Of a stretch of 39,451 nucleotides of DNA, positions 5,349-21,016 are shown piece by piece. Each line of letters starts with the position of its first letter. The stretch's first letter is position 1. The DNA comes from a virus. The position numbers and the translations under genes are program-made. The stretch is from IMG/VR virus record IMGVR_UViG_3300032288_001434, positions 1-39,451 of that record. One strand, given 5' to 3'. The notes beneath the pieces were generated by a model, which searched no databases, was not told where the DNA came from, and worked only from the letters and a program-made list of their open reading frames with translations.

Positions 5349-5759
5349 TTATTGTAATATCTTAACCATCTCTTGACAATTTTTATCTCCAGATAAAAAT
5401 CCGCACTCTGCGTACCTGTCAATAAGATGCTTGTTCTTTAGTGATGTATATATATACTTATATCCCTTCTGTTCTACATATACAGACAGAACATTTATCA
5501 GCATATTCAGAGCTTCCTTACGATCTGCCCTGTTCTTGTAGTTAGGGTTAGATATGATATACTCTATCCACGCTGTCTTGGAGTTTGTAAAGTATACAAA
5601 CCCAGCACATATATCTTGCCCATCTTTAGATATCATTATACCTCCAGCTCCATCTTGAGGAAGCATATCCCTACTTGGAGCAGTCCATCTCCACTGCTCC
5701 CACCATCCCTTTAGGATGTTGTCGTAGTCGTCTTCTTTTAGGTATCTAACTTGCATCAT
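5349..5759 (-). CDS. GNAT-like N-acetyltransferase
   Basis: This encodes 136 residues with the order of a small GNAT fold: an N-terminal strand and helix (VRYLKEDDYDNILKGWWEQW), a central hairpin (GGIMISKDGQDICAGFVYF), the core strand and following helix (AWIEYIISNPNYKNRADRKEALNM broadly at residues 63-86), and a C-terminal strand-helix (KYIYTSLKNKHLIDRYAECGF). The acetyl-CoA loop, normally R/Q-x-x-G-x-G/A, appears as a degenerate NRADRKEA segment, so activity is uncertain. The ATG overlaps the preceding stop as ATGA. Such small acetyltransferases are found in virion operons of Bacteroidota phages. The substrate is unknown; it may modify a virion protein or glycan made by the nearby glycosyltransferase (inference). 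Confidence 0.6.
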   Translation of the reverse strand: MMQVRYLKEDDYDNILKGWWEQWRWTAPSRDMLPQDGAGGIMISKDGQDICAGFVYFTNSKTAWIEYIISNPNYKNRADRKEALNMLINVLSVYVEQKGYKYIYTSLKNKHLIDRYAECGFLSGDKNCQEMVKILQ

Positions 5760-6508
5760 GGATAACTCTTAAATACTGATGAATCTATTGCAAACAACTC
5801 AAACTCTTGAGTTGACTTTGGTGTATTCATTGTAAGCTCAACCTGCATATAGTACCCCCTAAGTCCATAAGATTCAACCATATTATTCTTGGCAACTAGT
5901 ATATACATACCGTTAAAAAGAGGAGGCCCAACTAATGACGAAAAGCTAATACTACTCGATGCAACACCACTAACCTGTCCTAGATAAACTAGTTGACCTA
6001 ATCCATCTAATGTATAAACTCTATCCGTTACAGAAACCTTAGTTTCAATATTATATGAAGATGGAAAACTCATAGAAAGTGATGTAAAGGATGTTAAAGC
6101 TCCAATTCCCTGTACTGATAACGAAGCTGTGTCAACAGTATTATTGTCAGGCCTTCTAATAAATGCGTACCACTCACCCTCCTTAGCTTTGAAGTATGTA
6201 TCATCTATAATTCCGTTCTCTAGATCTGTAAGTAAAACAGCGTCCCAAGACTTGTCGCTATCAATAGCTAATGTCTTAAACATCTTTATTTCCGTAGGAC
6301 TTTCGTTTAATACAGTAGTTATTGTTGATGGGTACTGAGTACCATAGAAAGTATTTCTTGATTGATTGGTATCGTGCTTATACAAGTTTCCATCACTCCA
6401 TGTGTAAAATGTATTGTTCATACCAATCATCCAGTCTGGAATAAAAGACCACCTAGATGTCCATCCGTTGGACATTGTAGAGTATGTAAGTGTAACAGGA
6501 GGATTCAT
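5756..6508 (-). CDS. Muzzle/stabilization-protein C-terminal-type module as a separate gene
   Basis: This encodes 250 residues of beta-rich sequence. Near the N-terminus it has GWTSRWSFIPDWMIGMNN, then FYTWSDGNLYKHDTN, then RNTFYG, followed by a strand-rich region with KEGEWYAFIRR at ~110. This run of GWTS, SFIP, a tyrosine-rich strand, YKH and FYG is what I associate with the C-terminal part of muzzle/stabilization proteins in crAss-like phages, where it normally follows a segment like the one ending near residue 1180 of the 1304-residue protein here. In this genome it stands alone, four genes downstream. It is coupled to the acetyltransferase by an ATGA overlap. Probably a tail-muzzle component; the homology statement rests on recollection of family patterns. 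Confidence 0.6.
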   Translation of the reverse strand: MNPPVTLTYSTMSNGWTSRWSFIPDWMIGMNNTFYTWSDGNLYKHDTNQSRNTFYGTQYPSTITTVLNESPTEIKMFKTLAIDSDKSWDAVLLTDLENGIIDDTYFKAKEGEWYAFIRRPDNNTVDTASLSVQGIGALTSFTSLSMSFPSSYNIETKVSVTDRVYTLDGLGQLVYLGQVSGVASSSISFSSLVGPPLFNGMYILVAKNNMVESYGLRGYYMQVELTMNTPKSTQEFELFAIDSSVFKSYP

Positions 6509-6527
6509 ATTTACAAAGGTACTAAAA

Positions 6528-7445
6528 TTACACCAAACAACTATCGATAGATTTCATAAAGTTATAGTAGTTGTATGAACACCTACCTTTATTGACGTCA
6601 ATCTCTTCGTTAAATGGGTATGAGTCTATATAGTCTGCCTTAAAGAACATACCCTGTTTCTCATCCTGTACTCCAGCGTTATGGAAGAAGTAGTGCGTGT
6701 CCCAACTAGATATTGGACAAGTAGCCCAGCAAAAATCAAACTCATCTGGAACCCTAACCTCATGACCAAGCTTCCATGCAGTCCATAGCTCAGACCACAT
6801 AGACGCAGTCCAAACCTGTATCCCATAAGGATCACCATCCTTCTTTAGGTTAGACATAGTGACCAACTCGTCATAAAGGTTTCTTGAGTTCTTGTAAACC
6901 TCAGCCCAGTACTCGTGATCAATGTTCTTCATCAGCTTCTGAGCGCCACCAGAGTTATTTTGATTCTCCTCAACTAACTTTCTGTCTATACCAATAACAC
7001 TACACATCCTGTCTAAAACCTCTTCAGACTTACTCTTTATATAGTTAGCTCCTATATAACTAATAGTATCACTGAAGTACCACGTGTCGTCATTAAGGTA
7101 TGGAGTAAAGTCAAAGTATTTTGTAAACAAGAAGTCGCAGTCATGGAAGAATATAGCGTCATCCTTAAGGTATGGATGCTCTCTAAAGTGCTGCTCCAAC
7201 ATATACGACTGTATCGCTGGAGGATAGTTACACTCTCCCATATTGTCTTCATAGAAGAAGAACCTTACGTATGGGAACTTGGCCTGTATCTTTCTCCAAG
7301 ACTCTGGAATCTCTTCCATATAACAGGCCACTACATCTATATCATTACCACTGTATCCTAGAGATAGGAAGTTGTGTAGATAAACCTCAACCTGCCATGC
7401 GTAGTAATCAATAGCTGGTTGAGCAGAAAGAAATCTTAAACGCAT
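6528..7445 (-). CDS. GT-A-like glycosyltransferase
   Basis: This encodes 305 residues. Features fit a GT-A glycosyltransferase: an N-terminal alpha/beta region with a strand-loop DVVACYMEE (~37-45), a DxD-type motif D102-C-D104 inside AIFFHDCDFLF (binding metal and sugar nucleotide in this fold), a Trp-rich acceptor-side segment WTASMWSELWTAW (~212-224), and a C-terminal HYFFHNAG with His255, placed like the late metal-binding His of GT-A enzymes. The likely reaction is transfer of a sugar from a nucleotide donor to an unknown acceptor. The start overlaps the end of the poly-Thr adhesin gene by 10 bp, so the two are probably translated together. Modification of that adhesin is an attractive inference but not shown by sequence. 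Confidence 0.7.
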   Translation of the reverse strand: MRLRFLSAQPAIDYYAWQVEVYLHNFLSLGYSGNDIDVVACYMEEIPESWRKIQAKFPYVRFFFYEDNMGECNYPPAIQSYMLEQHFREHPYLKDDAIFFHDCDFLFTKYFDFTPYLNDDTWYFSDTISYIGANYIKSKSEEVLDRMCSVIGIDRKLVEENQNNSGGAQKLMKNIDHEYWAEVYKNSRNLYDELVTMSNLKKDGDPYGIQVWTASMWSELWTAWKLGHEVRVPDEFDFCWATCPISSWDTHYFFHNAGVQDEKQGMFFKADYIDSYPFNEEIDVNKGRCSYNYYNFMKSIDSCLV

Positions 7446-10303
7446 AAAGTACTATTTCCTGTCCAATTAGTTCCGTCCCACTCGTATGCAACTGTAGTAG
7501 CTAACTGCAAGTAATAATTTGCAGGAGCCAATACATATACTCCACCAATATATTCGTATATACTATTAGTATATACTCCAACAGCTCCATCTATAAAGAA
7601 CTCTGCTATTGGAGACTCGCATATAGTGTCAGCGTCTCCGTATCTAAAGTAAGAACTTACAGGAGGCGCAGCAGTTGTTGTGGTCGTAGTTGTTGTAGTA
7701 GTCGTGCTAGTTGTAGTTGTACTAGTTGTAGTAGTTGTTGTGATACCTGTACAGTCCACACAGTTGTCATACGTAAACAGTACACTAGATACAGCCACCC
7801 CTGGAGATGCTGAGTTAACTATTGTATAACACACATTATTAGCGCACTTAACTACCTCACCTGGAGATAGTGTACTAAACGACTGATGTGAAATCAGTAC
7901 TGTTGCGCCACCAGCACAAGGTGTTGCATCGTAGTATGTTGTAGGAAGTGTTGTAGTTGTAGTAGTTGTAGTAACTCCAGAACAAGCAACAACCATAAGT
8001 ACTTGTCCAGTACTCGCAACCTGCATTACATACGCAGCACCATCAAAGAAGTAGTACCACCCATTGCCTCCATTTAATGGAAAAGTTCCAATAGAGTTTG
8101 TATATACAAAATCATTTACAACTGGATACGGATTAGATCCATTATGATAGTACGTTGAAAGAGGACCAGAAGAGAATGCACAGGCATTATAAGCTGTTAG
8201 CTGTCTATCTGGATCTATGCTGAACGCAGTAAATACTGGAGCAGTAGTTGTTGTGGTAGTTGTGGTAGTTGTTGTAATATTTAAACATGTGGCACAGTCT
8301 CCATACGGACCAACAGTATTATCTATTAAAACATATGGATACGAAGCTGTAGTTGTTGCTGTTATCTCCCAACAGTTTCCATCAGTTGTTTTAACATAGT
8401 CTCCAACAATAAACCCACTAGTTGTAGTGTCAACAAGTGTAGCTATAACTAAACCATCTGGACACAATGTAGCTGTAAACCAGTCACCAGTTGGAAGGGT
8501 AGTAGTTGTTGTTGTAGTTGTAGTTGACGTAGTTGTAGTAGTAGATACTGGACACTCGTTCTTGTCGCATACTGTTCCAGTTTCACATACCTTTATTGAG
8601 TACGTAGAGTGATCAATCTTATACCACTGGCTACCGCCCATAAACTTTGTAGTAGCCTTATAGTCAATATATATATTGTCATTAATATTTGGAACCCTTC
8701 CGTTACCGTCATGATATAATAACGTATATATCGGTGACACAGCACAAGCTGCATCTCCAGTATCCCCAAAGTTTTCTACATCTATAGCGAACGGAGTAAG
8801 TTTTATTCCAGTCTCTACTGTTATATTTATAACCTTTGAATCACCATACCCTAAACAATTTTTAGCCCTTAGTTCAATATTGTAAGAGCATGCCTCCTCT
8901 GGAGTTCCAAATATCTCTCCAGTTGCATAGTTAAATGACAGTCCCTTTGGAAGATAGAAATCTAAGCATGCTTTATTAAAAGTATATGTACCGTTACCAA
9001 GAACAAGAGTAGGTGTAGTGCTAGAGCAGGTTGTTATAATTTCACTGTTTAGTGTTCCAACCGTTATTCTTTTATTATTACCGTAGCAGTCAACAATATC
9101 AAATATAGATCCAGTGTCTCCAGATGTAAATGTACACGAATCACAAGACCCTAACACTCTCCATTCAGTTGGATTGTTACTTGCTTGCATAGGAACATTA
9201 ATAAATCTTCCTTGCGTAATTACAATATCCTCTTGAAATATAAATGGTGGAGCATACTCTAAGCAGTCACATCCTGCAAATGTTTTAATAACTCCGTCTA
9301 ACCCAACAAGTCCGTACAACCCTCCAGAAACTGGAGGTACGGCCATAGACACGTCACTTATAAGATGATACGCATTATTACCGTTATATGGACTAAGTCC
9401 TGTAGAGTCTGTAAATATCTGGTCTCCAGTTACTGGATACATACCTAATCCATTATGATACATAGCAACGTTTGCTGTTTGTGTACAAACATTACTAGGC
9501 TCTCCATCAGTAGTATCTATATAGAACGTCTTAAGGTACGGGTCAATCCTTGATATGTTCCAAGAAGAATTTGTTATAGGAGAGTGTACGTATAGTACAG
9601 ACTCATCATTTGTTGAATCTGATTTAAAGAACTCAATAGATCCAGATCCATTGTTAACAAGTCCGTCATATGGAAATACAAGTTTAATATCAGATGGATC
9701 TATTCCAGCGGATATTAAGTTATTATAATTTGCTAGTGAATTAAGGCCAATATATCCTGTATCTTGAATAATTCTTCCGTTATAGCTAAGTATATACCTA
9801 GATGGTCTTAATACTGTATTATAATTTACTCCAGCTATACCTCTTTCATTTGGTAACTTTATGTCTATATACCTCTCTGTAATTGCGCCAGAATACGAAG
9901 CATATCCAGAACTAAGGCTATCTGTATAGTCCCATATAAGGTACAAGTTTTCGTAGTTATTAGGGTTATTAAACACAAACTTACCCTCATACCTTCCAGC
10001 CACAAGAACCATTGGTATCTCTGTAGCTAGAGATATAATCGTATCCTTCTGAGTTTCGTCATACAATATGTCAGAAACTAGGTAGTAAACCTTATTATTA
10101 AGTGCAGGCTCTAAGTCCTTTATAAATGAAGACTTGTCTACTGGAACGTATACATTTATAGTAGCTCCGTCATAAGGTATATACCCAACGCCACCTTCTC
10201 CAGTAACTTGATTAAATAAAGCAATCTCGTTTGCCTCTATAGATACTCCGTTTATACTAAACTCTAAACTCCCTGTATACTGAAAACTCTGATTTGCATT
10301 CAT
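7436..10303 (-). CDS. Multidomain tail adhesin with four poly-Thr linkers
   Basis: This encodes 955 residues of beta-rich, Cys-containing modules. After an N-terminal region (~1-210) comes a repeated module of about 90 residues seen at ~235-345, ~495-585 and ~690-775 and in a shortened form at ~880-955: an S/T-F-x-I-D start, a Cys, a Y-H-N/D-G-x-G-x-x-P turn, then W/Y-rich strands. A second module with a C..C..CxxC pattern lies at ~600-672 and ~785-853. Residues ~435-492 resemble a putative Ig (He_PIG-like) domain: LPKGLSFNYATGEIFGTP. Tracts of mostly Thr separate modules at ~585-601, ~674-687, ~776-784 and ~855-877. The start codon overlaps the muzzle stop as TAATG. Receptor or glycan binding at the virion surface is inferred; no transmembrane segment is visible. 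Confidence 0.75.
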   Translation of the reverse strand: MNANQSFQYTGSLEFSINGVSIEANEIALFNQVTGEGGVGYIPYDGATINVYVPVDKSSFIKDLEPALNNKVYYLVSDILYDETQKDTIISLATEIPMVLVAGRYEGKFVFNNPNNYENLYLIWDYTDSLSSGYASYSGAITERYIDIKLPNERGIAGVNYNTVLRPSRYILSYNGRIIQDTGYIGLNSLANYNNLISAGIDPSDIKLVFPYDGLVNNGSGSIEFFKSDSTNDESVLYVHSPITNSSWNISRIDPYLKTFYIDTTDGEPSNVCTQTANVAMYHNGLGMYPVTGDQIFTDSTGLSPYNGNNAYHLISDVSMAVPPVSGGLYGLVGLDGVIKTFAGCDCLEYAPPFIFQEDIVITQGRFINVPMQASNNPTEWRVLGSCDSCTFTSGDTGSIFDIVDCYGNNKRITVGTLNSEIITTCSSTTPTLVLGNGTYTFNKACLDFYLPKGLSFNYATGEIFGTPEEACSYNIELRAKNCLGYGDSKVINITVETGIKLTPFAIDVENFGDTGDAACAVSPIYTLLYHDGNGRVPNINDNIYIDYKATTKFMGGSQWYKIDHSTYSIKVCETGTVCDKNECPVSTTTTTSTTTTTTTTTLPTGDWFTATLCPDGLVIATLVDTTTSGFIVGDYVKTTDGNCWEITATTTASYPYVLIDNTVGPYGDCATCLNITTTTTTTTTTTAPVFTAFSIDPDRQLTAYNACAFSSGPLSTYYHNGSNPYPVVNDFVYTNSIGTFPLNGGNGWYYFFDGAAYVMQVASTGQVLMVVACSGVTTTTTTTTLPTTYYDATPCAGGATVLISHQSFSTLSPGEVVKCANNVCYTIVNSASPGVAVSSVLFTYDNCVDCTGITTTTTTSTTTTSTTTTTTTTTTTAAPPVSSYFRYGDADTICESPIAEFFIDGAVGVYTNSIYEYIGGVYVLAPANYYLQLATTVAYEWDGTNWTGNSTLCV

Positions 10304-13300
10304 TATTTATTCAGTTTATTATTTCTTACTACAGTAACCACGTTTAATCCTTTGCTTCTACCCTGTGTTAAGGTAAAGCTTTCAGTCTTTCCACAATAAT
10401 TAACTACTAACATTACACTTCTAACAACGTTTGTTGTGTTTTGAGAAACTTGTCCAGATATAACAGCGTCTCCAGTACCAGATGATATAAATCCACTCAC
10501 CCAGTTAGTCCCGAATCCAAGGTTAGTTACACTTATCGTCCAAGAGATATCTGTACTAATTCTAAAAAACTCTACTAAGTTACCAAAAGTTCCGTTAACA
10601 TTTATAACTATTTCTTTTCTACTTATCGACAATTTACAACCAAGTATATTTATGTTGTTTGATGAAAGTGTATATAGATGATTATGTGGATCATAGCAGC
10701 CTATCTTCTGAGTATCACCGTAGTTCTGCATCATATCAATAAAGTAATCCTTCATTCCATTGGCAGATATCTCTACTATCTGTTCTCCTGTCATTTGAAG
10801 AACAGCACCTCTATTTGAATCTGTAAAGAATATATCTCCACCCCACATTGCAAAAGACTCTGGATTTTTACTTATACCATACTCCCCTGGAAATGCAACC
10901 TGTGTCCCTAATACCTCTGGTATAGAAACGATCTGGCCTCCACCTACAGCATCAGATAAAAGGTTCTTTCCATAAAGAACTGAACTAACCTTGTTCTCTT
11001 GGAATACTACTATATCTGTATCTCTAGCATGAAGCTTTTGAATTGATCCAAACTCTCCATCAAGATATTTGAAGTTTGCTATAGACAGGTTAAACTCATT
11101 TAGTGCGTTTATACCTGTGTTCTCTCCATATATACCGCTATAACATATAGCATTCCTGCTTACCTTCTGCTCATATCCGTCTATAGTTGATGTAACTCTA
11201 GGACTATACTTAAGCGTAGCTGCATTCCAGTCGTCTCTTATTCTATATGTCTCCAACCCATTTGAGTATGACCACGCATTAAAGTCAGAGTTAATAGTAT
11301 ATAGAGGATTATTTATTTTTATAATTGCAACTCCTGTTGTTGTTACTTGATCTTCATCAATCTGGTCATAACTAACTGATCCTGGTGTCACTGGCGCAGC
11401 TCCAGGAAAGTTATAATCAATAATTATATTATATGGATTAATTACCTCAAGTATCTCATATGATCCAGTAAATAATGAACTTGACACATATACAGTCTCT
11501 CCAACAACAAAGGTATGCATCTCGTCTGTTGAAGAAGGAGTCGATCCAGGAATAAGTTGACCCAAGTTTGTTTTACCTGCGTTAGTTCCAGTTGCATATG
11601 TAAAGTCAGCATATCTCCATGTAACTGCATGAAGACCATTCTTTATTTTAAACGTTCTAGATAACTCGTGATATATATCAGTCTCTGATTCCTCTGGAAC
11701 TGTCTCAGTAATGATTTGATTTGTCAAATGCCTAACATATATACTTGCTGACATTCTGTTTGAAATATTATTTAAAGAACTTCCAGATATAATCATATAT
11801 ACTGGATAACTTAAAAAGTTTGCAACGGTTGAATCAAGTTCAATCGTTGAGTAATAAGGAGATGAAGATGATGTTTGAAAATTAGTTCCTCTTCTAAAGG
11901 ACACAGCTTTTGCTCCTAGTTCATTTCCATTAACATCTACATATTTAAAATCAATATAAGCTCCAGATTCAACAAACCACTCCTCTATGTTTTGATATGT
12001 ACTATTACTATAAAATGTTTGTACTATATTACTAGCATTAGGATTTTGATCTTCATTATATCTTATTTCTATAACATCACCTGGATATATTATAGCATCT
12101 AAAGATTCATTTAAAGTAATAGGGCATCTAGGAATAGCATTATTATTAACTCCTTTACCTCCAAAATAATTTAATGTAGATCCATTATTATATATAGATC
12201 TTACACTTGTTTTCCATATGTCACCAACAGATGGTTGAGAGTTCCAAGTAATGTAAAAATTTTGATTTGATGCAGCACCAATGTTTATTGGAAATGGGGT
12301 TCCTAATGATATAGTATAGTTACCATTCCATTGTCCACTAGATGTTATATCTGTAGTCCATCTAAATTCAGTAGCACTTACTACTTGTATAGTTATTCTA
12401 TAATCATTATTTAATTCTATAACATTATTAGGAGGAGTAGATGGATCAGACGGATCTTGAGTTAATGATAATGCATTTGCATTATTTTCTCCATAATATA
12501 TTGGATTTTCTACAAAATTAGTGGGGGCAAATATGGTTACGTATTCTCCTTGCACACCATAACCTTCTCCCCAATAAATCTGAACTCCAGCATTTGAATT
12601 AAGTTCTGTAGGAGAGTCAACCTTTATCTTAAAGTATAATCCTGCCTGTGCTCCAGTAATTCCCTCAAATCCTTCTGGCTGCATATTTAACTCAAGTACC
12701 TTATACCTCTTGTTAGAGTATGTTGGACCAGATGCGTCAGACTTAAATATAACGTACTTACCTACAGGAACTTTATCCCTGTCAGACTCATGTATCAAGA
12801 AGTATCTAAACTGATTCTTAGTATAGAAGTATATAGGAAATAGGTTGTAGTAACTTCCTTTAGACTGCTTTATTACAAGTCTGTAGTTTGTCGCCCATGT
12901 TGGAGGAGTATTGTATATACTAACAACTAAGCTATTTGCCTTGTCAGATTGAGTTGGAGGTATGTATACAGTATTACTATTATTTGAATTTGCAATAGTA
13001 TAATCAGGAGATACAAGAGTTGTGGTAGATCTACCATATTTATCTAAGTATACTAAACCTATCTCGTAATCCCTGTCAGATCTAAATGTTTGTATTGGCT
13101 CTCCAGGATTAGGATTAACTATAGAGTTATATTTAACGCCTAGTCTTACTGGATTAATTATATCATAAAACTGTGTATAGTTTCCATACATAATCCTATT
13201 ACCCACAAACTCTTGAGCCTTTGCAAATAGTGGAACATTATCAAATAATCTTGTTACTTGATCGTATGGTATTATGCTATAAGTCTTGTTGTTACTAAAT

Positions 13301-14217
13301 GTAAATGTTTTAAATACATTATTAGAAATATTTTGAGACTGCTTATCAATTGTTTGTATAACGTACACATTAAGTGCCCTAGTATCAACCATTAATACCT
13401 GTACCTCTTTTACAAATTCATTACCAGAGAATACAGTTATATTAGCCTCGTTATATCTATTTACCATTGACTTATTGTTTCCAATATTATAGTCAAGCAT
13501 ATAGTTCTTAGGTTGGAACGCAACAGATGAGAACGGAGACATTGCGCTGTACTGATTGTCTAAGTATTTATACCTATACGAAAAGTATATAAACTTCTCC
13601 TCAATGTTGTTTGATTGAGTGTTAGTGTTTATGGCTAATTGTATCTTAGGCGAATGTAAAGGTGGAGCCAATATAACGTTTATATCATTATCTATACGTG
13701 GATCGTCTATTGTATATCCACCTATACCATTCGGTCCAGACTTAACTCTAGATATATTTATTCGTCTTGGAGGGTTATAGTTATCTGTCCAATACAAGAA
13801 TCCGTTAATATAGTTAATACCAGTAACAATAAACTCTTGATTAAAGTTTAACTTGCTTGCTGTTGTAGGAGACACCTTCATGCACTGAAGAACTCTTGTG
13901 CTAGACCCATTTGATTGATTATACTCAAATATACCATCAAACTGATCACAAGCAACGAGCCAATAAATCAAGTTATCTCTCTCACTAGCTACAGCCCCAA
14001 TCGTTCTAGCATTAGTTATATTCTGTACACCAGATATTGCAGATATGTCTGCAACATTAGTGTTTCCAAGTTGATTTTTTGCAGCACCAATGTTTCCATT
14101 GTCTGCTGTGTCAACAGTTATGTTTAAAGCATCAATATATACTCCAGTAGGTATTAATCTCTCATCGAGATCTTTATTCATAACCCCTTGGAGGAACGTA
14201 TTGCTAATATCTGGCAT
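10303..14217 (-). CDS. crAss-like muzzle/tail stabilization protein with C-terminal BACON domain
   Basis: This encodes 1304 residues. The N-terminus SNTFLQGVMNKDLDERLIP, followed by an asparagine-rich strand and an LGN motif, is the signature opening of the crAss-like stabilization (muzzle) protein, which caps the tail below the ring stack. The body is a long beta-rich fold. Residues ~1195-1295 look like a BACON domain: a KLSISRKEI strand, SWTISV, an N-and-T-rich turn and a final SFTLTQG strand. BACON domains are linked to carbohydrate/mucin binding in Bacteroidota and their phages. The domain sits where the usual muzzle C-terminal module would follow; that module appears separately at 5756-6508. 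It is 2 bp downstream of a ring-protein gene and its stop overlaps the adhesin start. Confidence 0.8.
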   Translation of the reverse strand: MPDISNTFLQGVMNKDLDERLIPTGVYIDALNITVDTADNGNIGAAKNQLGNTNVADISAISGVQNITNARTIGAVASERDNLIYWLVACDQFDGIFEYNQSNGSSTRVLQCMKVSPTTASKLNFNQEFIVTGINYINGFLYWTDNYNPPRRINISRVKSGPNGIGGYTIDDPRIDNDINVILAPPLHSPKIQLAINTNTQSNNIEEKFIYFSYRYKYLDNQYSAMSPFSSVAFQPKNYMLDYNIGNNKSMVNRYNEANITVFSGNEFVKEVQVLMVDTRALNVYVIQTIDKQSQNISNNVFKTFTFSNNKTYSIIPYDQVTRLFDNVPLFAKAQEFVGNRIMYGNYTQFYDIINPVRLGVKYNSIVNPNPGEPIQTFRSDRDYEIGLVYLDKYGRSTTTLVSPDYTIANSNNSNTVYIPPTQSDKANSLVVSIYNTPPTWATNYRLVIKQSKGSYYNLFPIYFYTKNQFRYFLIHESDRDKVPVGKYVIFKSDASGPTYSNKRYKVLELNMQPEGFEGITGAQAGLYFKIKVDSPTELNSNAGVQIYWGEGYGVQGEYVTIFAPTNFVENPIYYGENNANALSLTQDPSDPSTPPNNVIELNNDYRITIQVVSATEFRWTTDITSSGQWNGNYTISLGTPFPINIGAASNQNFYITWNSQPSVGDIWKTSVRSIYNNGSTLNYFGGKGVNNNAIPRCPITLNESLDAIIYPGDVIEIRYNEDQNPNASNIVQTFYSNSTYQNIEEWFVESGAYIDFKYVDVNGNELGAKAVSFRRGTNFQTSSSSPYYSTIELDSTVANFLSYPVYMIISGSSLNNISNRMSASIYVRHLTNQIITETVPEESETDIYHELSRTFKIKNGLHAVTWRYADFTYATGTNAGKTNLGQLIPGSTPSSTDEMHTFVVGETVYVSSSLFTGSYEILEVINPYNIIIDYNFPGAAPVTPGSVSYDQIDEDQVTTTGVAIIKINNPLYTINSDFNAWSYSNGLETYRIRDDWNAATLKYSPRVTSTIDGYEQKVSRNAICYSGIYGENTGINALNEFNLSIANFKYLDGEFGSIQKLHARDTDIVVFQENKVSSVLYGKNLLSDAVGGGQIVSIPEVLGTQVAFPGEYGISKNPESFAMWGGDIFFTDSNRGAVLQMTGEQIVEISANGMKDYFIDMMQNYGDTQKIGCYDPHNHLYTLSSNNINILGCKLSISRKEIVINVNGTFGNLVEFFRISTDISWTISVTNLGFGTNWVSGFISSGTGDAVISGQVSQNTTNVVRSVMLVVNYCGKTESFTLTQGRSKGLNVVTVVRNNKLNK

Positions 14218-14219
14218 AT

Positions 14220-15122
14220 TTATTTAATTTGTTTTCCTTGACCTCTAAGTGACATAAGAAGTCTAGAAGGATGCATGTTACTTAATCTAAGCTTTGCGTT
14301 TCTTAACTCAGCTTGCTTTTCGCTTCTTGCTAAATTCTTTTCGTATATAGGGACACCATACTTATTATTTAGTAGTGCCCACTTAGTATACCTATATATA
14401 AACTCTTCTGCAAACTTATGAATAGTAACATCTGCATCGTTACCATTCTCCATACCATCAGATATGTACTCAAGTATTACTGTCTGACCAGCTATACCAG
14501 AAGAGAAGTCTATAACACCATTATTAACTCTAAAAGATGGGCCAGCAGAAAGTTCAGATGGATCAACCATAAACTTAGCCCCTACCTCATATCCAAAGTA
14601 CCAGTATCCATCGACACACCACCCGTAGCATCCGCTGTATAGACCTGGGCCTTCATAAAGAGTTTTGTCTAGTCTATCTAAATCTAACTTTGACGTACCT
14701 ATTAACACCTCTCCATTCTGATCGAATAGTATGTTGTTGTTATTGTCCTGTAGATAACCTAGAGCTGTATTAACCTTTCTGTTCTCATACAAAGGTCTAA
14801 GAAATCCATTTTCAAGAACCGATATCCTAACGTAGTTAACGTAGTCAGACGGAAGTATAAACTTCAAGTTATCTCCCACACTCATCTCTATAGACTTTAT
14901 AGACCTAAGCGCATCATAGTTAAGCATCTTGATTGCTTGCTTAATATGAAATATAACTTCGTAACGCTGTACGTTATTAACAGTCTTATCATTACCAACG
15001 TACATAGCCATAAAGTTGTTTACAGCATCCTTTAGAGATATATACTGATACGATCCCCAGTTTTCATCCTGTGGGACTACACCGTTATTTGTGTAGTACT
15101 GATATGGAGTAATATATGGCAT
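14220..15122 (-). CDS. Tail ring protein, crAss-like
   Basis: This encodes 300 residues. It opens with ITPYQYYTNNG, then a helical region (RYEVIFHIKQAIKMLNYDAL), a beta-rich middle with LKFILPSDYVNYVRIS, a Cys-containing insert around residue 165 (GCYGWC), and a helical C-terminus (HKFAEEFIYRYTKWALLNNK) ending in a basic tail. These match what I recall of the ring-forming proteins that stack between portal and muzzle in crAss-like phages. It lies between another ring protein (stop/start overlap at 15122) and the muzzle gene, which fits a portal-ring-ring-muzzle assembly order. Which numbered ring it represents cannot be decided here. Confidence 0.7.
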   Translation of the reverse strand: MPYITPYQYYTNNGVVPQDENWGSYQYISLKDAVNNFMAMYVGNDKTVNNVQRYEVIFHIKQAIKMLNYDALRSIKSIEMSVGDNLKFILPSDYVNYVRISVLENGFLRPLYENRKVNTALGYLQDNNNNILFDQNGEVLIGTSKLDLDRLDKTLYEGPGLYSGCYGWCVDGYWYFGYEVGAKFMVDPSELSAGPSFRVNNGVIDFSSGIAGQTVILEYISDGMENGNDADVTIHKFAEEFIYRYTKWALLNNKYGVPIYEKNLARSEKQAELRNAKLRLSNMHPSRLLMSLRGQGKQIK

Positions 15123-15853
15123 TATTGACCTTTTTCTTGTATATTTTGTAATTCTTCTGTCTTAGCTACCTGCACAACTTCTGTCTCCCTAATCGATACA
15201 CCAGCGTATTGAAGTATCTTTAAAACAAGGTCAGCCTCATAGCTAACTGGCAACTCAAAATCTTGATAAGCAGGAAGAGATGGATTAAATACCGCCTCTC
15301 CACCAGATAAAGATGTATACGTCCAGTTTGGATCCTCTGGGTATCTTATGTACTGAGCTGTTATAAATCCAGTCTGAGATGCTGAATTTAATGTAGTTGG
15401 ATATAACTGTATTCTTGTTGCAGATACAGCATTTGAATCCATTGTATATACTGGATAAGATACTGAAGGTGCTGCGATATTAGACGCAAGTAAGTTATGT
15501 ATCTTACTGTGTGAAACCTTTTCTATCTCTGTTGTATTATTATACAATACCTTATCAAGGTAATAGCATGTATCTGGAATGTCAAACCTCTGTGATATTG
15601 GATTAAATGTTAATACACCATAAGTTGAAAAAGCCTCTATGGCCTCTGTTATTTTTTTAGGAATATCTGTATATCCAGCGTTGTATGATCTAGCATTCTG
15701 TGCGTTTACAGCCATACTGTATCTGCTCATCAAGGCATCAAATATCTCCATCTGAGCTTGTTTAGCGAATAGGTTAAACTCCATCGGAGTAACGTATCCC
15801 CTGTTATCCTTACTAATTATGGATAGTACTGTATTTCTTACGCTATCTATCAT
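15122..15853 (-). CDS. Tail ring protein, crAss-like (proximal)
   Basis: This encodes 243 residues with an N-terminal helical signature (MIDSVRNTVLSIISK, then GYVTPMEFNLFAKQAQMEIF) and near the C-terminus YQDFELPVSYEADLVLKILQ followed by YAGVSIRE. Both are strong family markers I associate with ring/tail-tubular-type proteins of Bacteroidota podoviruses and crAss-like phages. It probably binds the portal or the first ring below it. It is the first gene of a unit: immediately upstream lie an intrinsic terminator (15867-15897) and a TATATTTG element (15858-15865) with exactly four bases between that element and the ATG, so the message may be leaderless. The adjacent ring gene overlaps its stop by one base. 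Confidence 0.75.
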   Translation of the reverse strand: MIDSVRNTVLSIISKDNRGYVTPMEFNLFAKQAQMEIFDALMSRYSMAVNAQNARSYNAGYTDIPKKITEAIEAFSTYGVLTFNPISQRFDIPDTCYYLDKVLYNNTTEIEKVSHSKIHNLLASNIAAPSVSYPVYTMDSNAVSATRIQLYPTTLNSASQTGFITAQYIRYPEDPNWTYTSLSGGEAVFNPSLPAYQDFELPVSYEADLVLKILQYAGVSIRETEVVQVAKTEELQNIQEKGQ

Positions 15854-15857
15854 AGTG

Positions 15858-15865
15858 CAAATATA
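15858..15865 (-). promoter_or_regulatory. TAnnTTTG promoter element, four bases from ATG
   Basis: The minus strand reads TATATTTG, then CACT, then the ATG at 15853. It matches the Bacteroidota -7 element TAnnTTTG. With the usual spacing to the start site, transcription would begin at or within a few bases of the ATG. A clear -33 TTG is not obvious, because the upstream bases are the U-tract of a terminator. Confidence 0.65.
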
Positions 15866-15866
15866 G

Positions 15867-15897
15867 TAAAAAAAAAGAGGTCACAAATTGTGACCCC
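15867..15897 (-). terminator. Intrinsic terminator after the 111-residue gene
   Basis: A near-perfect hairpin GGTCACAA / TTGTGACC (15879-15886 and 15888-15895), followed on the minus strand by nine T residues. It ends the unit containing 15922-16257 and directly abuts the next promoter. Confidence 0.85.
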
Positions 15898-15921
15898 TTC
15901 TCTAATAATAAAAAAATATTA

Positions 15922-16257
15922 TTATGCTGACCACTCTTCCTCGATCTGAGTAATAGCAGTAACAGTGTAAGGTAATCTAGAAGTAATGTCAAGAACTGGT
16001 CTAGTCCAAGATAAAGTTAAAGACTCCTCAATCAAGTTAGCAAATGCTGTCAATTGAGCTTTTGTTTTAGTAGCATCAGATGCAGTTGTAGCAGTTATCT
16101 GAAGACCAATCACCTCAGATGCACCAGTAGCACCATATCCTACAGTATTGTAAAGAACTTGAATGTGAGTGTCAGCACCTACTTCAATGTGTAAAATGTT
16201 TTTAACTGGAATTAAAAACGGAGCATTACTTAAAGTAATTTTTAAAAATTTTTCCAT
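15922..16257 (-). CDS. Small conserved head/neck-region protein, unknown function
   Basis: This encodes 111 residues beginning MEKFLKITLSN at the ATG at 16257. A longer reading from a TTG at 16290 is rejected because it would start inside the TATATTTG promoter. The sequence alternates hydrophobic and polar residues as in a small beta sandwich (LIPVKNILHIEVG, THIQVLYNT, GLQITATT), then a short helix (AQLTAFANLIEESL). It forms its own transcription unit between terminators at 16299-16333 and 15867-15897, suggesting a need for high or separate expression, as for a capsid decoration or neck protein. I do not recognise a named family. Confidence 0.75.
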   Translation of the reverse strand: MEKFLKITLSNAPFLIPVKNILHIEVGADTHIQVLYNTVGYGATGASEVIGLQITATTASDATKTKAQLTAFANLIEESLTLSWTRPVLDITSRLPYTVTAITQIEEEWSA

Positions 16258-16287
16258 TTTGTAAAAAATTAATGGGTTAATAAAGTG

Positions 16288-16295
16288 CAAATATA
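16288..16295 (-). promoter_or_regulatory. TAnnTTTG promoter element for 15922-16257
   Basis: The minus strand reads TATATTTG immediately after the T-tract of the terminator at 16299-16333. About 30 bases separate it from the ATG at 16257, giving a short AT-rich leader. The sequence after it (GCACTT) closely matches the element at 15858. Confidence 0.65.
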
Positions 16296-16298
16296 ATA

Positions 16299-16333
16299 AA
16301 AAATGTCCAGTTTATTTTTACAAAAACTGGACA
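16299..16333 (-). terminator. Intrinsic terminator after the 252-residue gene
   Basis: A perfect 10-bp stem TGTCCAGTTT / AAACTGGACA (16304-16313 and 16324-16333) with a 10-base loop, then a run of T on the minus strand that leads straight into the next promoter. Confidence 0.85.
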
Positions 16334-16341
16334 AATCTATA

Positions 16342-17100
16342 TTAATCAACATACATTTGATTCTCTAGGTACTGATAAAACTCTAAACCTTCATCAGACT
16401 TAAGCCATGTCATAAACACATCTTCTTTTTTCTCTCCAAATGGTACAGTGAGTATCTTCTTTTTATTGTTTTTTAAATTATAATGGATATCCTTTCCAGC
16501 TCTAAACGTAACGTAACCCTCATCGAATGCTCTTGATGAAATATCGTTAACATCAATATCTGGATCTTCTATAGCGTATAAGAAGTCTTCTGGATAGTTT
16601 CTTGCAAACAATAATATGTCATGCTTGATCTCAGCAGCTGTCATCTTATCTACATTAGAATCTAAGTGAACCCTAGCAATAGACTTCATTTTGTCTAAGT
16701 CTAATGACCTTGCTGCAATTAATGCATCAACTTCTAAATTCAAGTTTCTTACTTTATCTTCAGCAATTTTTTGTGGATCAAACTCATAAAATAATGTTCC
16801 TCCATTAGCAAGATTATCTGGATGAATATCCATAAACTGTTGAAGTATTGGGTTATTTTTTAATACAGTAATTTTACCATCTTCCATTACAATTGGCTCA
16901 AGAATAGCTGTACCATCCTGTTCATCTTCAAATACTGATTTTTGATTTTTAGAATACCTAAGAGGTCTATTAATACCTTTATCCTCATCAAAATGAAGAA
17001 GTTGTCTCCTTTTATTACTTCTTGATTGAATAAAAAAACTAACTGGAGTTTTGTCTTGATTTAAGACATAGACCTTGTCTTTTGTTTGATTTGTTTTCAT
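16342..17100 (-). CDS. Conserved auxiliary head protein, crAss-like
   Basis: This encodes 252 residues. The N-terminal half has VYVLNQDKTPVSFFI, NRPLRYSKNQ, VFEDEQDGTAILEPIV and a NNPILQQFMDIHP segment, a pattern I associate with a gene that regularly follows the major capsid gene in crAss-like and related Bacteroidota phages. The second half is helical and acidic (KIAEDKVRNLNLEVDALIAAR, LLFARNYPEDFLYAIED). It sits between the capsid gene's terminator and its own terminator. No TAnnTTTG element is obvious in its 30-bp AT-rich leader. A structural or capsid-accessory function is inferred from location and conservation; no enzymatic motif is seen. Confidence 0.7.
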   Translation of the reverse strand: MKTNQTKDKVYVLNQDKTPVSFFIQSRSNKRRQLLHFDEDKGINRPLRYSKNQKSVFEDEQDGTAILEPIVMEDGKITVLKNNPILQQFMDIHPDNLANGGTLFYEFDPQKIAEDKVRNLNLEVDALIAARSLDLDKMKSIARVHLDSNVDKMTAAEIKHDILLFARNYPEDFLYAIEDPDIDVNDISSRAFDEGYVTFRAGKDIHYNLKNNKKKILTVPFGEKKEDVFMTWLKSDEGLEFYQYLENQMYVD

Positions 17101-17130
17101 TATACTTAATTTAAATTAAAATTATAAAAA

Positions 17131-17155
17131 GAGAGGGACATTATTGTCCCCCTCT
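17131..17155 (-). terminator. Intrinsic terminator after the major capsid gene
   Basis: GGGACA (17135-17140) pairs with TGTCCC (17145-17150), and AGA/TCT extends the stem past a two-C bulge. A TTTTTATAA stretch follows on the minus strand. Confidence 0.75.
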
Positions 17156-17167
17156 AGTTTTTATTTA

Positions 17168-18580
17168 TTAGTCTTTGAACAATACAAAGTTGTTTGCTCC
17201 AAGAGTACAAAGTGCACGCTCAGATAAGAAGTGAACTTGCATTGCATCTAGATCGCTGTTAGAAGCACCTCCAGCAGAACCAGTAACCCAAGTCTTGAAT
17301 TTTCTGTTTTCTGCCTCGTTTGCACGGTAACGAACGTGTAAGAATGGACGCTTCATGTTTTTACCCATTACTTGGTCATATACTGACATAGTACCAGCTG
17401 GAATAAGAACACCATTGATAGCTCCACCTACAATACCTCCACGAAGAGTTGCATCATTCAAGTATTTCCAGTCAGACTTATAGAAGTCATAACCTCTTCT
17501 AAATGAAGTAAACCCTAAGTTAAGAGCCATATCCTTATCGTTATCAAATAATCCGTAAGAAGTACCACCAGCTCCGTAAGAGTTTTGAGCAGCCAACATA
17601 TCATCAATATCGAAAGAGAACTCACGATTAACAAACAATACGTTTTCTGCGATAGCACCTTGCTTGTCAAGACGAGCAACGATATCATCAAATTCTCCTA
17701 ATGTAGATGGATTACCTCCAGACCATACATTTCCACGATCTTCGATAGCTTCAAACATACCTTCTGATCCAGAGTTAGCACCTAATTCAGCAGCAGCTCC
17801 AGAACCAGTTTCAGTAGAAACGTGTTCGATCATCATCATTTCAAGATAATCGTCAAAACGTAGACGAGTTTCATGCTCTGCCTTAACATACCAAAGGTAT
17901 CCTGTAGCACCATTCTCAGTAGTTACTTCAACCCATCCAATTTGTGCCATGTCAGAACCTGCAACTTCAAATTTATCTTTAATGATAACTGGTTTTACTT
18001 CAAAGATGTCGTCAACTGGATCAAGAGATCCTGTCATTCCTCCAACACCTTTTTTGAATTCAGATCCATAAACAAACGCTGTAAATGTAGCTGATGTATC
18101 TCCAGCTGCAATACCACTTGCGTTATAAAATGCTACTTTAAATCTTGTCGCATCTCCAGAAACTGGACACTCAGTAACTAAACCTCTGTATGATGTTGAT
18201 CCAGCATTATTAGATAAGAATACAGTTTGTCCAACTCTAAAGTTACAAGTAGCTGTACCAATATCAAAAGTAACAACATCGTCACCACCTGTAGCAGAAA
18301 CTGGAGTAGCACTTGTATACTTAGTGTGAAGACGACCTTGCTCTGCCCATTTAATTAAGTCAGAAGCTGAAGGAATTTCAGCACTTACGTTACGTAAGAA
18401 AGATGCAATAGAACGATTTCCATATCGCTCAAATTCTTGCTCATAAGTATCAGGAAGATACTGAGTCATAAAGTCAAAAGTACTAATATAGTTACTTGAC
18501 AATGTAGCTTTAACTGAACTTGGAGTTAAAGATACAGCTGGATTTCCCAATCCGTTTAAGATGTCTAATGAACCTGCCAT
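17168..18580 (-). CDS. Major capsid protein, crAss-like HK97 fold
   Basis: This encodes 470 residues. Position after portal and scaffold, length, and sequence pattern fit the HK97-fold major capsid protein of crAss-like phages: a Ser/Thr-rich N-terminus, the helical FDFMTQYLPDTYEQEFERYGNR region (~36-57, cited in part), a beta-rich insertion domain (~85-175), a long spine-helix region around ETRLRFDDYLEMMMIEH (~245) and a C-terminal HVRYRANEAENRKFKTWVTGS strand region near residue 425. Codon use is less AT-biased than in neighbours, as expected of a highly expressed protein. It is 12 bp downstream of the scaffold gene and followed by a strong terminator. The identification rests on synteny and recalled family patterns. 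Confidence 0.85.
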   Translation of the reverse strand: MAGSLDILNGLGNPAVSLTPSSVKATLSSNYISTFDFMTQYLPDTYEQEFERYGNRSIASFLRNVSAEIPSASDLIKWAEQGRLHTKYTSATPVSATGGDDVVTFDIGTATCNFRVGQTVFLSNNAGSTSYRGLVTECPVSGDATRFKVAFYNASGIAAGDTSATFTAFVYGSEFKKGVGGMTGSLDPVDDIFEVKPVIIKDKFEVAGSDMAQIGWVEVTTENGATGYLWYVKAEHETRLRFDDYLEMMMIEHVSTETGSGAAAELGANSGSEGMFEAIEDRGNVWSGGNPSTLGEFDDIVARLDKQGAIAENVLFVNREFSFDIDDMLAAQNSYGAGGTSYGLFDNDKDMALNLGFTSFRRGYDFYKSDWKYLNDATLRGGIVGGAINGVLIPAGTMSVYDQVMGKNMKRPFLHVRYRANEAENRKFKTWVTGSAGGASNSDLDAMQVHFLSERALCTLGANNFVLFKD

Positions 18581-18592
18581 TTTGTTTTAATT

Positions 18593-19666
18593 TTAACGTT
18601 TTTTAATTTTTAGTTTACCGCTATAACCTTCGTCAACAACTCTGATTTGGAATCCAGACTTTGGTGTTGGTGTCGGAGAGTTTCTAGTCATATCTATATT
18701 CTTCGACTCCTTATCAAAGTTTGTAACAGCGTCAGCCTTTCCTTTTTCGTAGAAAAATCTTGCCGTCTTCTCTGGATCCATTGCCATTGCTATTGCCTTA
18801 TGAAACATCTCCGCATCCTTTAAGTATCCGTCCTTATCTAAAAAATTAGATATAAAGTTACTTAGATTCGACTGCTTCGAAAGAATGTCATTGCTCTCTC
18901 CAGGCTTGTAAACAATCTTGGTGCTATCATCTATGTTAAATCCGAAACCTTCGAAATTGTTAGAGAATAGCTCCTCAGTTTTTTGCTTGAAGTACTCTGA
19001 CTTCTTTTGTTGATCATCAAGGTTACTCTTATATGACTTAAAAGACTCATAGGCATCTCTCTCTTCCTGTGGAACAAAACCTTCTCTTGACTCAAGAGGA
19101 GCTTTATACTGTTCCTTCATTTCGTTGAAATACTGCTTCGCCTTTTTAAGCTCTTGTTTTTTAGCTAACTTCCTTTCTTTGATATCTTCATCTGAATCGT
19201 AGTCCTCATCGTACTTTAACTTACTCAGTTTGTACTCAACGTCCTCTTCATCATCTCCGTTATCCTTATAGAAATCAGCCAATAATTTATCTGGATCGAT
19301 AGAGTCAATGTCTCTGTTTAGTTTAACAAAGTCTTCGATTCCTCGTCCAGTTTCCCTCTTGTACTTTCTAAAGGCAGCAACGTCTTCCTCCAAATCATCT
19401 TCAATAGATCTTGGTTGGAATAGATCGTCTATAGAGCTAACCTCCTTATTGTACTTATTCTTGATGTGAGATAAAACAATATCATCATCTATTTCAAATT
19501 GATTAGAGCTCGTTTGCTCTAAACTTGTATCTGGTGTGTTTTGTTCACTAACAGCCTCTTGCTCAGCTAAAGACTTCTCGTGATTCTCAACTAACTCTCT
19601 TTCTACCTCTTGTAGTGACTTCTCTTCAGAGTCAACAAGTCTTACCTTTATCTTTGATTCTTCCAT
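18593..19666 (-). CDS. Capsid scaffolding protein
   Basis: This encodes 357 residues, strongly acidic and charged, dominated by Glu, Asp and Lys with helical, coiled-coil-like stretches (ERKLAKKQELKKAKQYFNE ~ residues 185-203) and a basic C-terminal tail (KLKIKKR). It lies directly before the major capsid gene. An acidic, disordered/helical protein with a basic C-terminal end at this position is the classic layout of a scaffolding protein, which nucleates procapsid assembly by contacting the capsid protein and is lost before DNA fills the head. No protease domain is visible. A TAATTTTG element (19688-19695) lies 21 bases upstream of its ATG. Confidence 0.75.
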   Translation of the reverse strand: MEESKIKVRLVDSEEKSLQEVERELVENHEKSLAEQEAVSEQNTPDTSLEQTSSNQFEIDDDIVLSHIKNKYNKEVSSIDDLFQPRSIEDDLEEDVAAFRKYKRETGRGIEDFVKLNRDIDSIDPDKLLADFYKDNGDDEEDVEYKLSKLKYDEDYDSDEDIKERKLAKKQELKKAKQYFNEMKEQYKAPLESREGFVPQEERDAYESFKSYKSNLDDQQKKSEYFKQKTEELFSNNFEGFGFNIDDSTKIVYKPGESNDILSKQSNLSNFISNFLDKDGYLKDAEMFHKAIAMAMDPEKTARFFYEKGKADAVTNFDKESKNIDMTRNSPTPTPKSGFQIRVVDEGYSGKLKIKKR

Positions 19667-19687
19667 TTTATTTGATTTAAATTGTTA

Positions 19688-19695
19688 CAAAATTA
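19688..19695 (-). promoter_or_regulatory. TAnnTTTG-like element upstream of scaffold and capsid genes
   Basis: The minus strand reads TAATTTTG in the 50-bp gap between 19717 and 19666, leaving a 21-base leader before the scaffold ATG. The gap is otherwise AT-rich, so a chance match is possible. Confidence 0.45.
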
Positions 19696-19716
19696 ATTAA
19701 AAAAATAATATAGCGA

Positions 19717-20022
19717 TTAAGATCCCTTAACCCACTTCTTATTCTTAGGTTGTGCAGTATTTTTTGGACTCCATTTCACCTTGTCTGCCCAGTATGCCGC
19801 TGACATCTTTCCTATAGATATATTCTTAGCATGACGACTTTTAAATGCCTCACGTTGTCCAGCAGTCTGGTTAGTCTTAACTCCTTGTTGTCCAAAACGT
19901 ATAGTCTTTATAGAGTCTCCTTCCTTAGCCACAACAATGTGTGACTTTGTAGGGTGACTTGGAGTTCTTTTAGGTTTGTTATATCCAGTAACTCCTGCAC
20001 GTTCTAGTCTTGAGTCTTTCAT
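19717..20022 (-). CDS. Conserved basic phage protein of the head operon
   Basis: This encodes 101 residues, Lys/Arg-rich. The motifs NKPKRTPSHPTKSHIVVAK, IKTIRFGQQGVK and MSAAYWADKVKW are ones I recall from a small protein widespread in marine and gut phages, encoded beside portal/capsid genes. Its function is not known to me. The sequence suggests a nucleic-acid-binding or virion structural protein, because it is basic and has a well-conserved aromatic C-terminal segment. The ATG overlaps the preceding 48-residue gene's TGA as ATGA, indicating coupled translation. Confidence 0.75.
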   Translation of the reverse strand: MKDSRLERAGVTGYNKPKRTPSHPTKSHIVVAKEGDSIKTIRFGQQGVKTNQTAGQREAFKSRHAKNISIGKMSAAYWADKVKWSPKNTAQPKNKKWVKGS

Positions 20023-20165
20023 TTCTTCTTAGCTGTTTTCTTTGATTCTTTGAATGCTTTTGATGTAGGAGCACCCTTAGTACCAGGTTTTCTCATACTC
20101 TCTCCAGATCCAGCCTCTATACGTGCTCTCTTGGCATGTATGTTTGCATATAGTCCTTTCTTCAT
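20019..20165 (-). CDS. Small basic conserved protein, 48 residues
   Basis: This short gene reads MKKGLYANIHAKRARIEAGS, continues with a GESMRKPGTKGAPTSKAF segment and ends in a Lys-rich tail. I recall near-identical small proteins in many Bacteroidota phages beside head genes, which supports it being real despite its size. It begins four bases after the 210-residue gene's stop and its TGA overlaps the next ATG. The charge suggests binding to nucleic acid or to an acidic assembly partner such as the scaffold; that is inference. Confidence 0.75.
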   Translation of the reverse strand: MKKGLYANIHAKRARIEAGSGESMRKPGTKGAPTSKAFKESKKTAKKK

Positions 20166-20168
20166 AAA

Positions 20169-20801
20169 CTAATTATTATCGTAAAACATATATTCAGAGT
20201 CCTCTGTCTGCCACTTCTCAAAGCCTTCACAGTTGAAGTACTCCTTATTAACCATGTAGTCTGGTTTCTCTGGGAATGGTTTAGTAACAAAGCTAGGCTC
20301 TGACCACTTGATTCTATTATTAGGCTGTAGTGCTATCTGACCATTGTCAAGAAGTATGATGTGGTGAGACTTATGCTCCATAGGATCCTCTGCTAAACTG
20401 ATATCTGTATTAATATCTCCAGAACCCCAGTTAATGGTTGCATAGTATGTTCCATCGTACCACTTTTTGTCTTTCATATAAACTTCTACTGGAGAGTCAT
20501 ACACATAAGACAATTGTGTGAGTGTGAAATTATAGCTAAAACAATTCCAAATTTGTAAAAAATGAAATGGTAAATCGGTTTCTGGTAGATTATCTGTAGT
20601 TAATAATGCATGTGATGGCAACTTATCACGCATCACGCCATTGTTTAACAGAACCTGGAATAATGCCGCTTGTCCTGGAAGACATCTAACAGAGATAATT
20701 GTTCCTTCCGTAAACTCTCCATGACCTTTACTAAACTGATACATGTACTCGTTTCTAACAAATACCTTGAGTGGAAAGAAGTTATGCTCTATATATGCCA
20801 T
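20169..20801 (-). CDS. Conserved phage protein, possible head-tail interface component
   Basis: This encodes 210 residues. It is beta-rich at the start (NFFPLKVFVRNEYMYQF, GTIISVRCLPGQAALFQVLL) with a Met-Arg-Asp-Lys-Leu-Pro motif, a Trp/Cys stretch (LQIWNCFSYNFTL), two VYMKDKKWYDG/DTY-like strands and HKSHHIILLDNGQIALQPNN. I recognise the pattern from a protein conserved across diverse marine phages, always in the head operon, but I know of no assigned function. It lies just after the portal and a 71-residue beta-rich protein; the one-base overlap at 20801 suggests coupling. Confidence 0.75.
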   Translation of the reverse strand: MAYIEHNFFPLKVFVRNEYMYQFSKGHGEFTEGTIISVRCLPGQAALFQVLLNNGVMRDKLPSHALLTTDNLPETDLPFHFLQIWNCFSYNFTLTQLSYVYDSPVEVYMKDKKWYDGTYYATINWGSGDINTDISLAEDPMEHKSHHIILLDNGQIALQPNNRIKWSEPSFVTKPFPEKPDYMVNKEYFNCEGFEKWQTEDSEYMFYDNN

Positions 20802-21016
20802 TATAATTTTTTACGTTTATCCTTTACTCTTTTTGTAATAGGTATATTAGCAGAAAATGTTATATCTGTCTCTGGCTTATATCCTGTTCCAGCACTCTGA
20901 CCAATATCTAATGATATTGGACCCTTTGAAATATTAACACCATAATACGCATCAATTCCAGATTTCTGTACTGACCCACTTAAGTAAGGGTTAAACTTTA
21001 ACTTATTCTTTCTCAT
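20801..21016 (-). CDS. Small beta-rich protein downstream of portal
   Basis: This encodes 71 residues starting MRKNKLKFNPYLSG. The ATG at 21016 is preferred over an upstream in-frame start because it lies one base after the portal stop (21018-21020). The sequence is a series of short amphipathic strands with turns (GIDAYYGVNI, GPISLDIGQS, ITFSANIPIT), resembling hairpins of a small barrel, and ends in a basic tail (KRVKDKRKKL). Function is unknown; the portal context suggests a virion role. Confidence 0.65.
   Translation of the reverse strand: MRKNKLKFNPYLSGSVQKSGIDAYYGVNISKGPISLDIGQSAGTGYKPETDITFSANIPITKRVKDKRKKL

Follow-up and report, generated by a model that had tools for sequence, protein, structure and literature searches.

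Within the virus record IMGVR_UViG_3300032288_001434 of IMG/VR, the whole of which (39,451 nucleotides, 39.5 kb) was analysed and is referred to here as the window, all genes of interest lie on the minus strand. The subject of this analysis is a pair of these genes that overlap by exactly 10 bp: that of a Thr-rich, muzzle-associated tail-tip protein of 955 amino acids (aa) with a He_PIG Ig domain (7436..10303, -), the proposed glycan acceptor, and that of a 305-aa protein (6528..7445, -), a predicted glycosyltransferase (GT) of the phrog_4417 family. A preliminary description, made from the sequence alone, had presented the former as an adhesin and proposed that it is modified by the latter together with a GNAT-like acetyltransferase encoded two genes further downstream; its coordinates, the four Thr tracts, the 10-bp overlap and the order of the GNAT-like gene were all correct.

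The 955-aa protein contains 137 Thr and 27 Cys residues and four conserved Thr/Ser tracts, located at residues 587-602 (STTTTTSTTTTTTTTT; 8498..8545, -), 677-687 (11 Thr; 8243..8275, -), 778-785 (8 Thr; 7949..7972, -) and 855-877 (23 Thr/Ser; 7673..7741, -). In 2000 shuffles of the protein a Thr run of at least 8 never arose, the longest being 6. The runs are encoded by mixed Thr codons (24 ACT, 23 ACA, 4 ACC and 3 ACG), which had earlier been taken as a sign of selection at the protein level, and a comparison with seven relatives bears this out: nonsynonymous differences affect 1-7 of the 58 tract codons as against 83-464 of around 890 codons elsewhere, and synonymous differences are found in 18-37 of the 58. 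The fourfold degeneracy of the Thr codons inflates the synonymous counts; notwithstanding this degeneracy, the per-codon nonsynonymous rate is several times lower in the tracts than in the remainder of the gene. The order of the tracts is preserved among the relatives and their length closely so, and both position and length are retained where the GT is only 62% identical. The Thr tracts are kept by purifying selection on the Thr residues. The AlphaFold2 (AF2) model of the protein consists of folded beta modules with the Thr tracts between them at low confidence, the predicted local distance difference test score (pLDDT) being below 50 at residues 587-601, 676-688, 776-786 and 854-879, which coincide with the four tracts; at a whole-protein predicted template modelling score (pTM) of 0.35, the local picture alone was used and no fold was assigned. 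Two poly-Val open reading frames (ORFs) on the plus strand (8217-8399 and 8427-8612) arise as antisense counterparts of these tracts and are not genes.

The pair is flanked by the two parts of a crassvirus muzzle. On the upstream side lies the gene of the 1304-aa muzzle N-part (10303..14217, -; phrog_14478, E=3e-184), preceded by that of a ring-type protein (14220-15122, -), the first in the minus-strand gene order, and on the downstream side the gene of a 250-aa protein with the crassvirus muzzle C-terminal domain (5756..6508, -; PF25729 crAss_MUZ_C, E=2e-17). Hits to the phrog_14478 profile were obtained with the 1304-aa protein as well as with the 250-aa one, and since a single profile spans the two, they form one polypeptide elsewhere. 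The crAss-like structural block of the window further includes the portal, the large terminase and additional virion proteins. The 955-aa protein belongs to the crAss-like tail tip or muzzle, because it is fused with the muzzle N-part into one polypeptide of 2057-2195 aa in eight relatives (L071, L073, L074, L077, L078, L082, L083 and L085); in addition, its residues 23-129 match the end of gp120 of Cellulophaga phage phi13:2, which is annotated as a structural protein. The label of adhesin is supported only in part: the protein is associated with the muzzle at the tail tip, and a role in receptor binding is putative. The muzzle protein of phi-crAss001 is gp44, and the published muzzle varies in length through insertions (PMC10172136). 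The window shares with gp44 the MUZ_C domain and the muzzle N-part, but its muzzle is split into separate genes with a cassette of the Thr-tract protein and the GT between them. The main text of the phi-crAss001 muzzle paper makes no mention of glycans or threonine.

The 305-aa protein matches phrog_4417 over nearly its entire length (residues 4-301 on profile positions 2-292 of 293, E=7.1e-65), a family that is listed in PHROGs without an assigned function ('unknown function') and whose link with Thr tracts was newly found in this analysis. No Pfam or NCBIfam family matched the enzyme, no Pfam GT family, including Glyco_transf_8 (PF01501), was recovered among 37 members of its family, and searches of the PDB sequences, run with the single GT sequence or with a profile of it, returned chance matches only (neck protein gp14, geminin). 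The AF2 model based on the 37 sequences has a GT-A fold (pLDDT 96, pTM 0.93), and among solved structures it is most similar to LgtC (Z 14.8 over 227-231 residues) and glycogenin (Z 14.7), followed by WbbM, UGGT and LARGE1. The structure prediction therefore agrees with the GT-A-like glycosyltransferase originally proposed, and the protein is predicted to be a GT-A glycosyltransferase similar to these two enzymes, LgtC and glycogenin. Invariant over the 37 sequences are D102 and D104, which make up the metal-binding DxD motif, Q210, H255xxG258 and K269. These residues appear to follow the same order as those that we take to form the active site of LgtC (D103, D105, Q189, H244, G247 and K250), a comparison based on residue order. 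The enzyme has in common with LgtC and glycogenin, two GT8-type retaining enzymes with a GT-A fold, and with UGGT the fold (Z 13-15), the DxD motif and apparently the order of Q, H-x2-G and K, but it is only around 10% identical to them and its acceptor is assigned from gene association alone. By analogy, a retaining mechanism would be expected, and a UDP-sugar (UDP: uridine diphosphate) donor is our guess on the basis of the LgtC/glycogenin-like fold. An Arc-like repressor domain (phrog_3673, residues 308-365 of 365) is appended to the C-terminus of the GT ORF in a Bacillaceae prophage (L093, 10001-11098), and the GT ORFs of several other Bacillaceae are comparably long.

A tblastn search with the enzyme yielded 74 phage records, mainly from Lactobacillaceae, Enterococcus, Staphylococcus and Lactococcus, as well as Chryseobacterium phage MA9V-3. 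In annotated genomes, the enzyme gene directly follows that of the major tail protein in phiFL1A, where the neighbouring virion protein ends in ...GTTTTTSTTTTTTSSTTTTTTTQASSK, and that of a 'major structural protein' in phage 1706, where the neighbouring tail reads ...GVTTTTTTTTTTHHD; in Planchet and bIL285 it follows the capsid gene, and the bearer of the tag is either the major tail protein or a downstream protein of 202 aa. The capsid protein of R9.1 has the C-terminus ...GKTTTTTTTSHV, and the neighbouring virion protein of ENFP1 contains TTVAP repeats. Using a strict tract criterion (a stretch of 8 residues with 7 or more Thr, in a protein near the enzyme), a Thr-tract protein was present in 127 of 137 enzyme loci, and 9 of the remaining 10 showed Thr-rich tails or repeats on inspection, giving 136/137 overall. 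By a looser tract rule, 173 tagged ORFs were located on the strand of the enzyme and 0 on the opposite one, with a tagged ORF directly upstream of the enzyme within 600 bp in 114 loci. The tract takes the form of a C-terminal tag in the phages of Bacillota, often borne by both the capsid and the tail-tube protein of one phage, and the two may share the same ending (...TTTTTTTSHV twice; ...TTTTTTHHD twice); over 31 phages, the identity of the last two residues between capsid and tail was 0.82 versus 0.32 in shuffled pairs (p=1e-4), in a shuffle that ignores relatedness. The one exception among the 137 loci (L090) is a non-phage locus on a Chitinophaga chromosome. There, the GT relative (10004-10981) is part of a lanthipeptide cluster, and its neighbours (11002-20960) comprise LanC-like proteins, a luciferase-like protein, a lantibiotic dehydratase and two similar Ser/Thr/Cys-rich precursor-like ORFs, which suggests another setting with Ser/Thr-rich peptide substrates, namely a glycosylated lanthipeptide.

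The coupling also holds when homologous virion proteins with and without the enzyme are compared. The acceptor homologues were searched with the query tails removed, so that tails could not be selected for. In this way, the tail was found on major tail protein A of Bacillota in 17/17 loci with GT and in 0/63 without, on major tail protein B of Bacillota in 3/3 and 0/11, and on the Lacticaseibacillus major capsid protein in 29/29 and 0/29, respectively. In the crAss set, composed of phages fetched by the enzyme or the ring protein in which both muzzle parts are present, a Thr-tract protein occurs in all 73 loci with GT (72 by the strict criterion and L020 as TTSP repeats) and in none of the 18 without. 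Since the two muzzle genes nearly abut in GT-negative loci (at most 10 bp apart in 12 of the 18), the tract protein and the GT behave as a two-gene cassette. Taken over the four acceptor contexts, tracts are present in 122/122 loci with the enzyme versus 0/121 without. The locus counts are not independent, and relatedness was checked on maximum-likelihood trees, where joint gains or losses of GT and tail recur. The tree of tail protein A requires at least 5 forced changes and all 5 of its supported independent pairs agree in GT and tail, as do 2/2 pairs in the capsid protein tree and 2/2 in the crAss tree; pooled, 9/9 independent pairs agree (sign test, p ~0.004). The pairing of enzyme and tail protein put forward in the preliminary description extends beyond the tail, as the presence of the enzyme tracks Thr tracts in unrelated virion proteins.

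Considering the predicted fold, the invariant motif, the gene-tract coupling, the selection on Thr and the membership of the tail apparatus, all of which were computed here, we think it highly probable that the enzyme attaches O-glycans to the Thr tracts of the adjacent protein and represents a dedicated virion-protein O-glycosyltransferase acting on poly-Thr. Its catalytic activity, the use of Thr as acceptor and a biological benefit are what we infer. The two adjacent genes would then constitute an acceptor-plus-enzyme pair, in which a sugar is transferred from a host nucleotide-sugar donor to Thr (and Ser) within the disordered tracts, the acceptor being the tail-tip protein encoded just upstream of the enzyme. 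Glycosylation could turn the tracts into stiff, protease-resistant, mucin-like spacers between the tail-tip beta modules, and in the Bacillota-phage relatives the same enzyme family would decorate the poly-Thr tags in which capsid and tail-tube proteins end. The benefit might lie in spacer stiffness, in shielding against proteases or antibodies, or in receptor tuning.

It might be argued that the Thr tracts are plain, unmodified flexible linkers or tails and that the enzyme has another, co-occurring virion substrate, as poly-Thr proteins are also found in phages that lack the GT. We hold this to be improbable, because the tract is missing at the same position in all 121 homologue loci without GT and because closely related capsids (homologues 93-98% identical to the query) possess the tail with GT (KVLVPGKTTTTTTSHG) and none without (KVLIPKP). 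A similarly low probability is assigned to the idea that the tail protein bears an acetylated glycan produced jointly by the enzyme and the GNAT-like protein. The latter protein (136 aa; 5349..5759, -; PF00583 E=0.005, phrog_17252) scores 17.5 bits with the Pfam Acetyltransf_1 model versus a cut-off of 20.7, and its gene, two genes downstream of the GT, is a neighbour outside the GT/Thr-tract pair. It is present in 51/60 GT-positive versus 11/14 GT-negative relatives (p=0.69), and thus independent of the pair; it is kept in Cellulophaga phi13:2 (38% identity), the muzzle locus of which has neither GT nor tract, and it is missing in GT-positive loci such as L006, L017 and L019. Being equally common without the pair, it was rejected as a partner: the GNAT-like gene goes with the muzzle C gene and not with glycosylation. 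Of the original proposal that both enzymes modify the tail protein, the glycosyltransferase half is therefore strongly supported and the acetyltransferase half is not. Elsewhere in the window, we found a gene for a GroEL-like chaperonin (33854-35449, -; phrog_5725, 4e-120) and one for a protein matching a 'ferredoxin' phrog (20169-20801, -; phrog_3704).

Phage GTs that alter the host envelope are a known kind, cited as such in PMC12619734, and the enzyme could in principle modify a host surface polymer, resulting in superinfection exclusion or a receptor change, with the Thr-tract linkage reflecting neighbouring cargo. This is slightly less probable still, as cargo linkage leaves the coincidence of Thr tail and GT in four acceptor contexts unexplained, the GT is situated within structural operons, right behind the tagged gene, and the predicted structure of the enzyme shows no evident membrane-spanning segment. 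Glycosylation of phage DNA, a role of some phage GTs according to the same paper, is very unlikely given the GT-A fold near LgtC and glycogenin, the coupling to protein tracts, and the fact that a search of the examined stretches, which was not exhaustive, recovered no DNA-modification partner.

Several observations weigh against O-glycosylation of the tracts by this enzyme. Thr runs of at least 12 are common in phages that lack the enzyme, which was present in 13/120 loci with such runs (within the fetched stretch) and in 2/50 further whole poly-Thr records. The tagged protein is kept in the GT-negative loci L246, L331, L343, L450 and L477, and a distant crAss-like fragment with Thr-tract proteins (L196) contains no GT that we could find in 34 kb. 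Possibly, such tracts are unmodified or modified by other enzymes. Furthermore, the loci are interrelated, and the number of supported independent changes is around 9 and not 243. In four other loci (L329, L330, L371 and L448) the sequence ends before or within the position of the GT. The preliminary description had named a poly-Thr protein without a GT nearby as the case that would speak against it; this case is absent in the close relatives and present in L196 and in many unrelated phages, because of which the rule runs one way, from GT to tract. A general requirement for this GT among the poly-Thr proteins of phages is ruled out by the many poly-Thr phages without it: the enzyme implies the tract, the tract does not imply the enzyme. 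The Thr-tagged proteins of L246 (4492-4809, +) and L450 (8816-9415, +), which are of virion type and lie in loci without a detectable GT, are possibly relics left after enzyme loss. In L196 (2443-7188, -), two proteins have Thr tracts, one of 285 aa and the other the muzzle protein, and they share a near-identical C-terminal module.

Other glycosyltransferases were encountered in the poly-Thr phages. A GT2-type gene (PF00535 type) lies directly downstream of the tract in L171 (4240-5067, -) and L241 (11609-12436, -), and a PF11397 GlcNAc-transferase-type gene lies close downstream of the poly-Thr protein in L193 (6244-7125, +) and is also found in the record of L130. Among the poly-Thr phage records, PF00535 was found in 14/37 (13 over the cut-off) and PF11397 in 2/37, counts that come without a base rate, and several of these genes are not near the tract. 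The data are therefore only suggestive of such GTs being tract enzymes, and those of L171, L241 and L193 may constitute convergent enzyme-tag pairs. In a broader sense, we lean towards the view that poly-Thr is a portable, short O-glycosylation tag that nearly every kind of virion protein (capsid, head, tail tube or tail tip) can receive, that its writer is a dedicated enzyme family moving along with the tag between the phages of Bacteroidota and Bacillota, and that unrelated enzymes (GT2-type in L171 and L241, PF11397 in L193 and L130) have convergently come to play the same role.

Mycobacteriophage GTs have been reported to glycosylate virions, with glycans that sit on the C-terminal ends of the capsid and tail-tube subunits and act as a shield (Freeman et al. 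2023, as related in PMC12619734 and PMC11256854). The system of Che8-type phages resembles the one described here in that the GTs are phage-encoded and in that the C-termini of the capsid and tail-tube subunits are concerned, which is where the Bacillota relatives have their poly-Thr tags, whereas the tracts of the window protein are internal linkers. The GTs of Che8, gp108-110, fall into phrog_8858, 1721 and 854, their genes are far from the structural genes, and none of the three matches the enzyme profile; moreover, the capsid and tail proteins of Che8 end in NKTGS and QYSDGS and have no poly-Thr. A literature search, which reached few subscription journals, recovered no publication on poly-Thr tags in phages, and the novelty is therefore provisional. 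Within known phage virion glycosylation, the system is most likely one in which the enzyme family is new and the acceptor tag portable.

Phage virion glycosylation has been demonstrated in few cases so far, and the proposed O-glycosylation of poly-Thr can be put to a direct test in those phages of Lactococcus, Lacticaseibacillus and Enterococcus that are in culture. A short tag with its own enzyme could also serve as a protein-glycosylation tool in bacteria. If the proposal is true, a large unnamed phage gene family (upwards of 550 relatives, a lower bound) would gain a function, and where a Thr tag and the enzyme gene occur together, the glycosylation of a phage and the protein concerned could be predicted from sequence.

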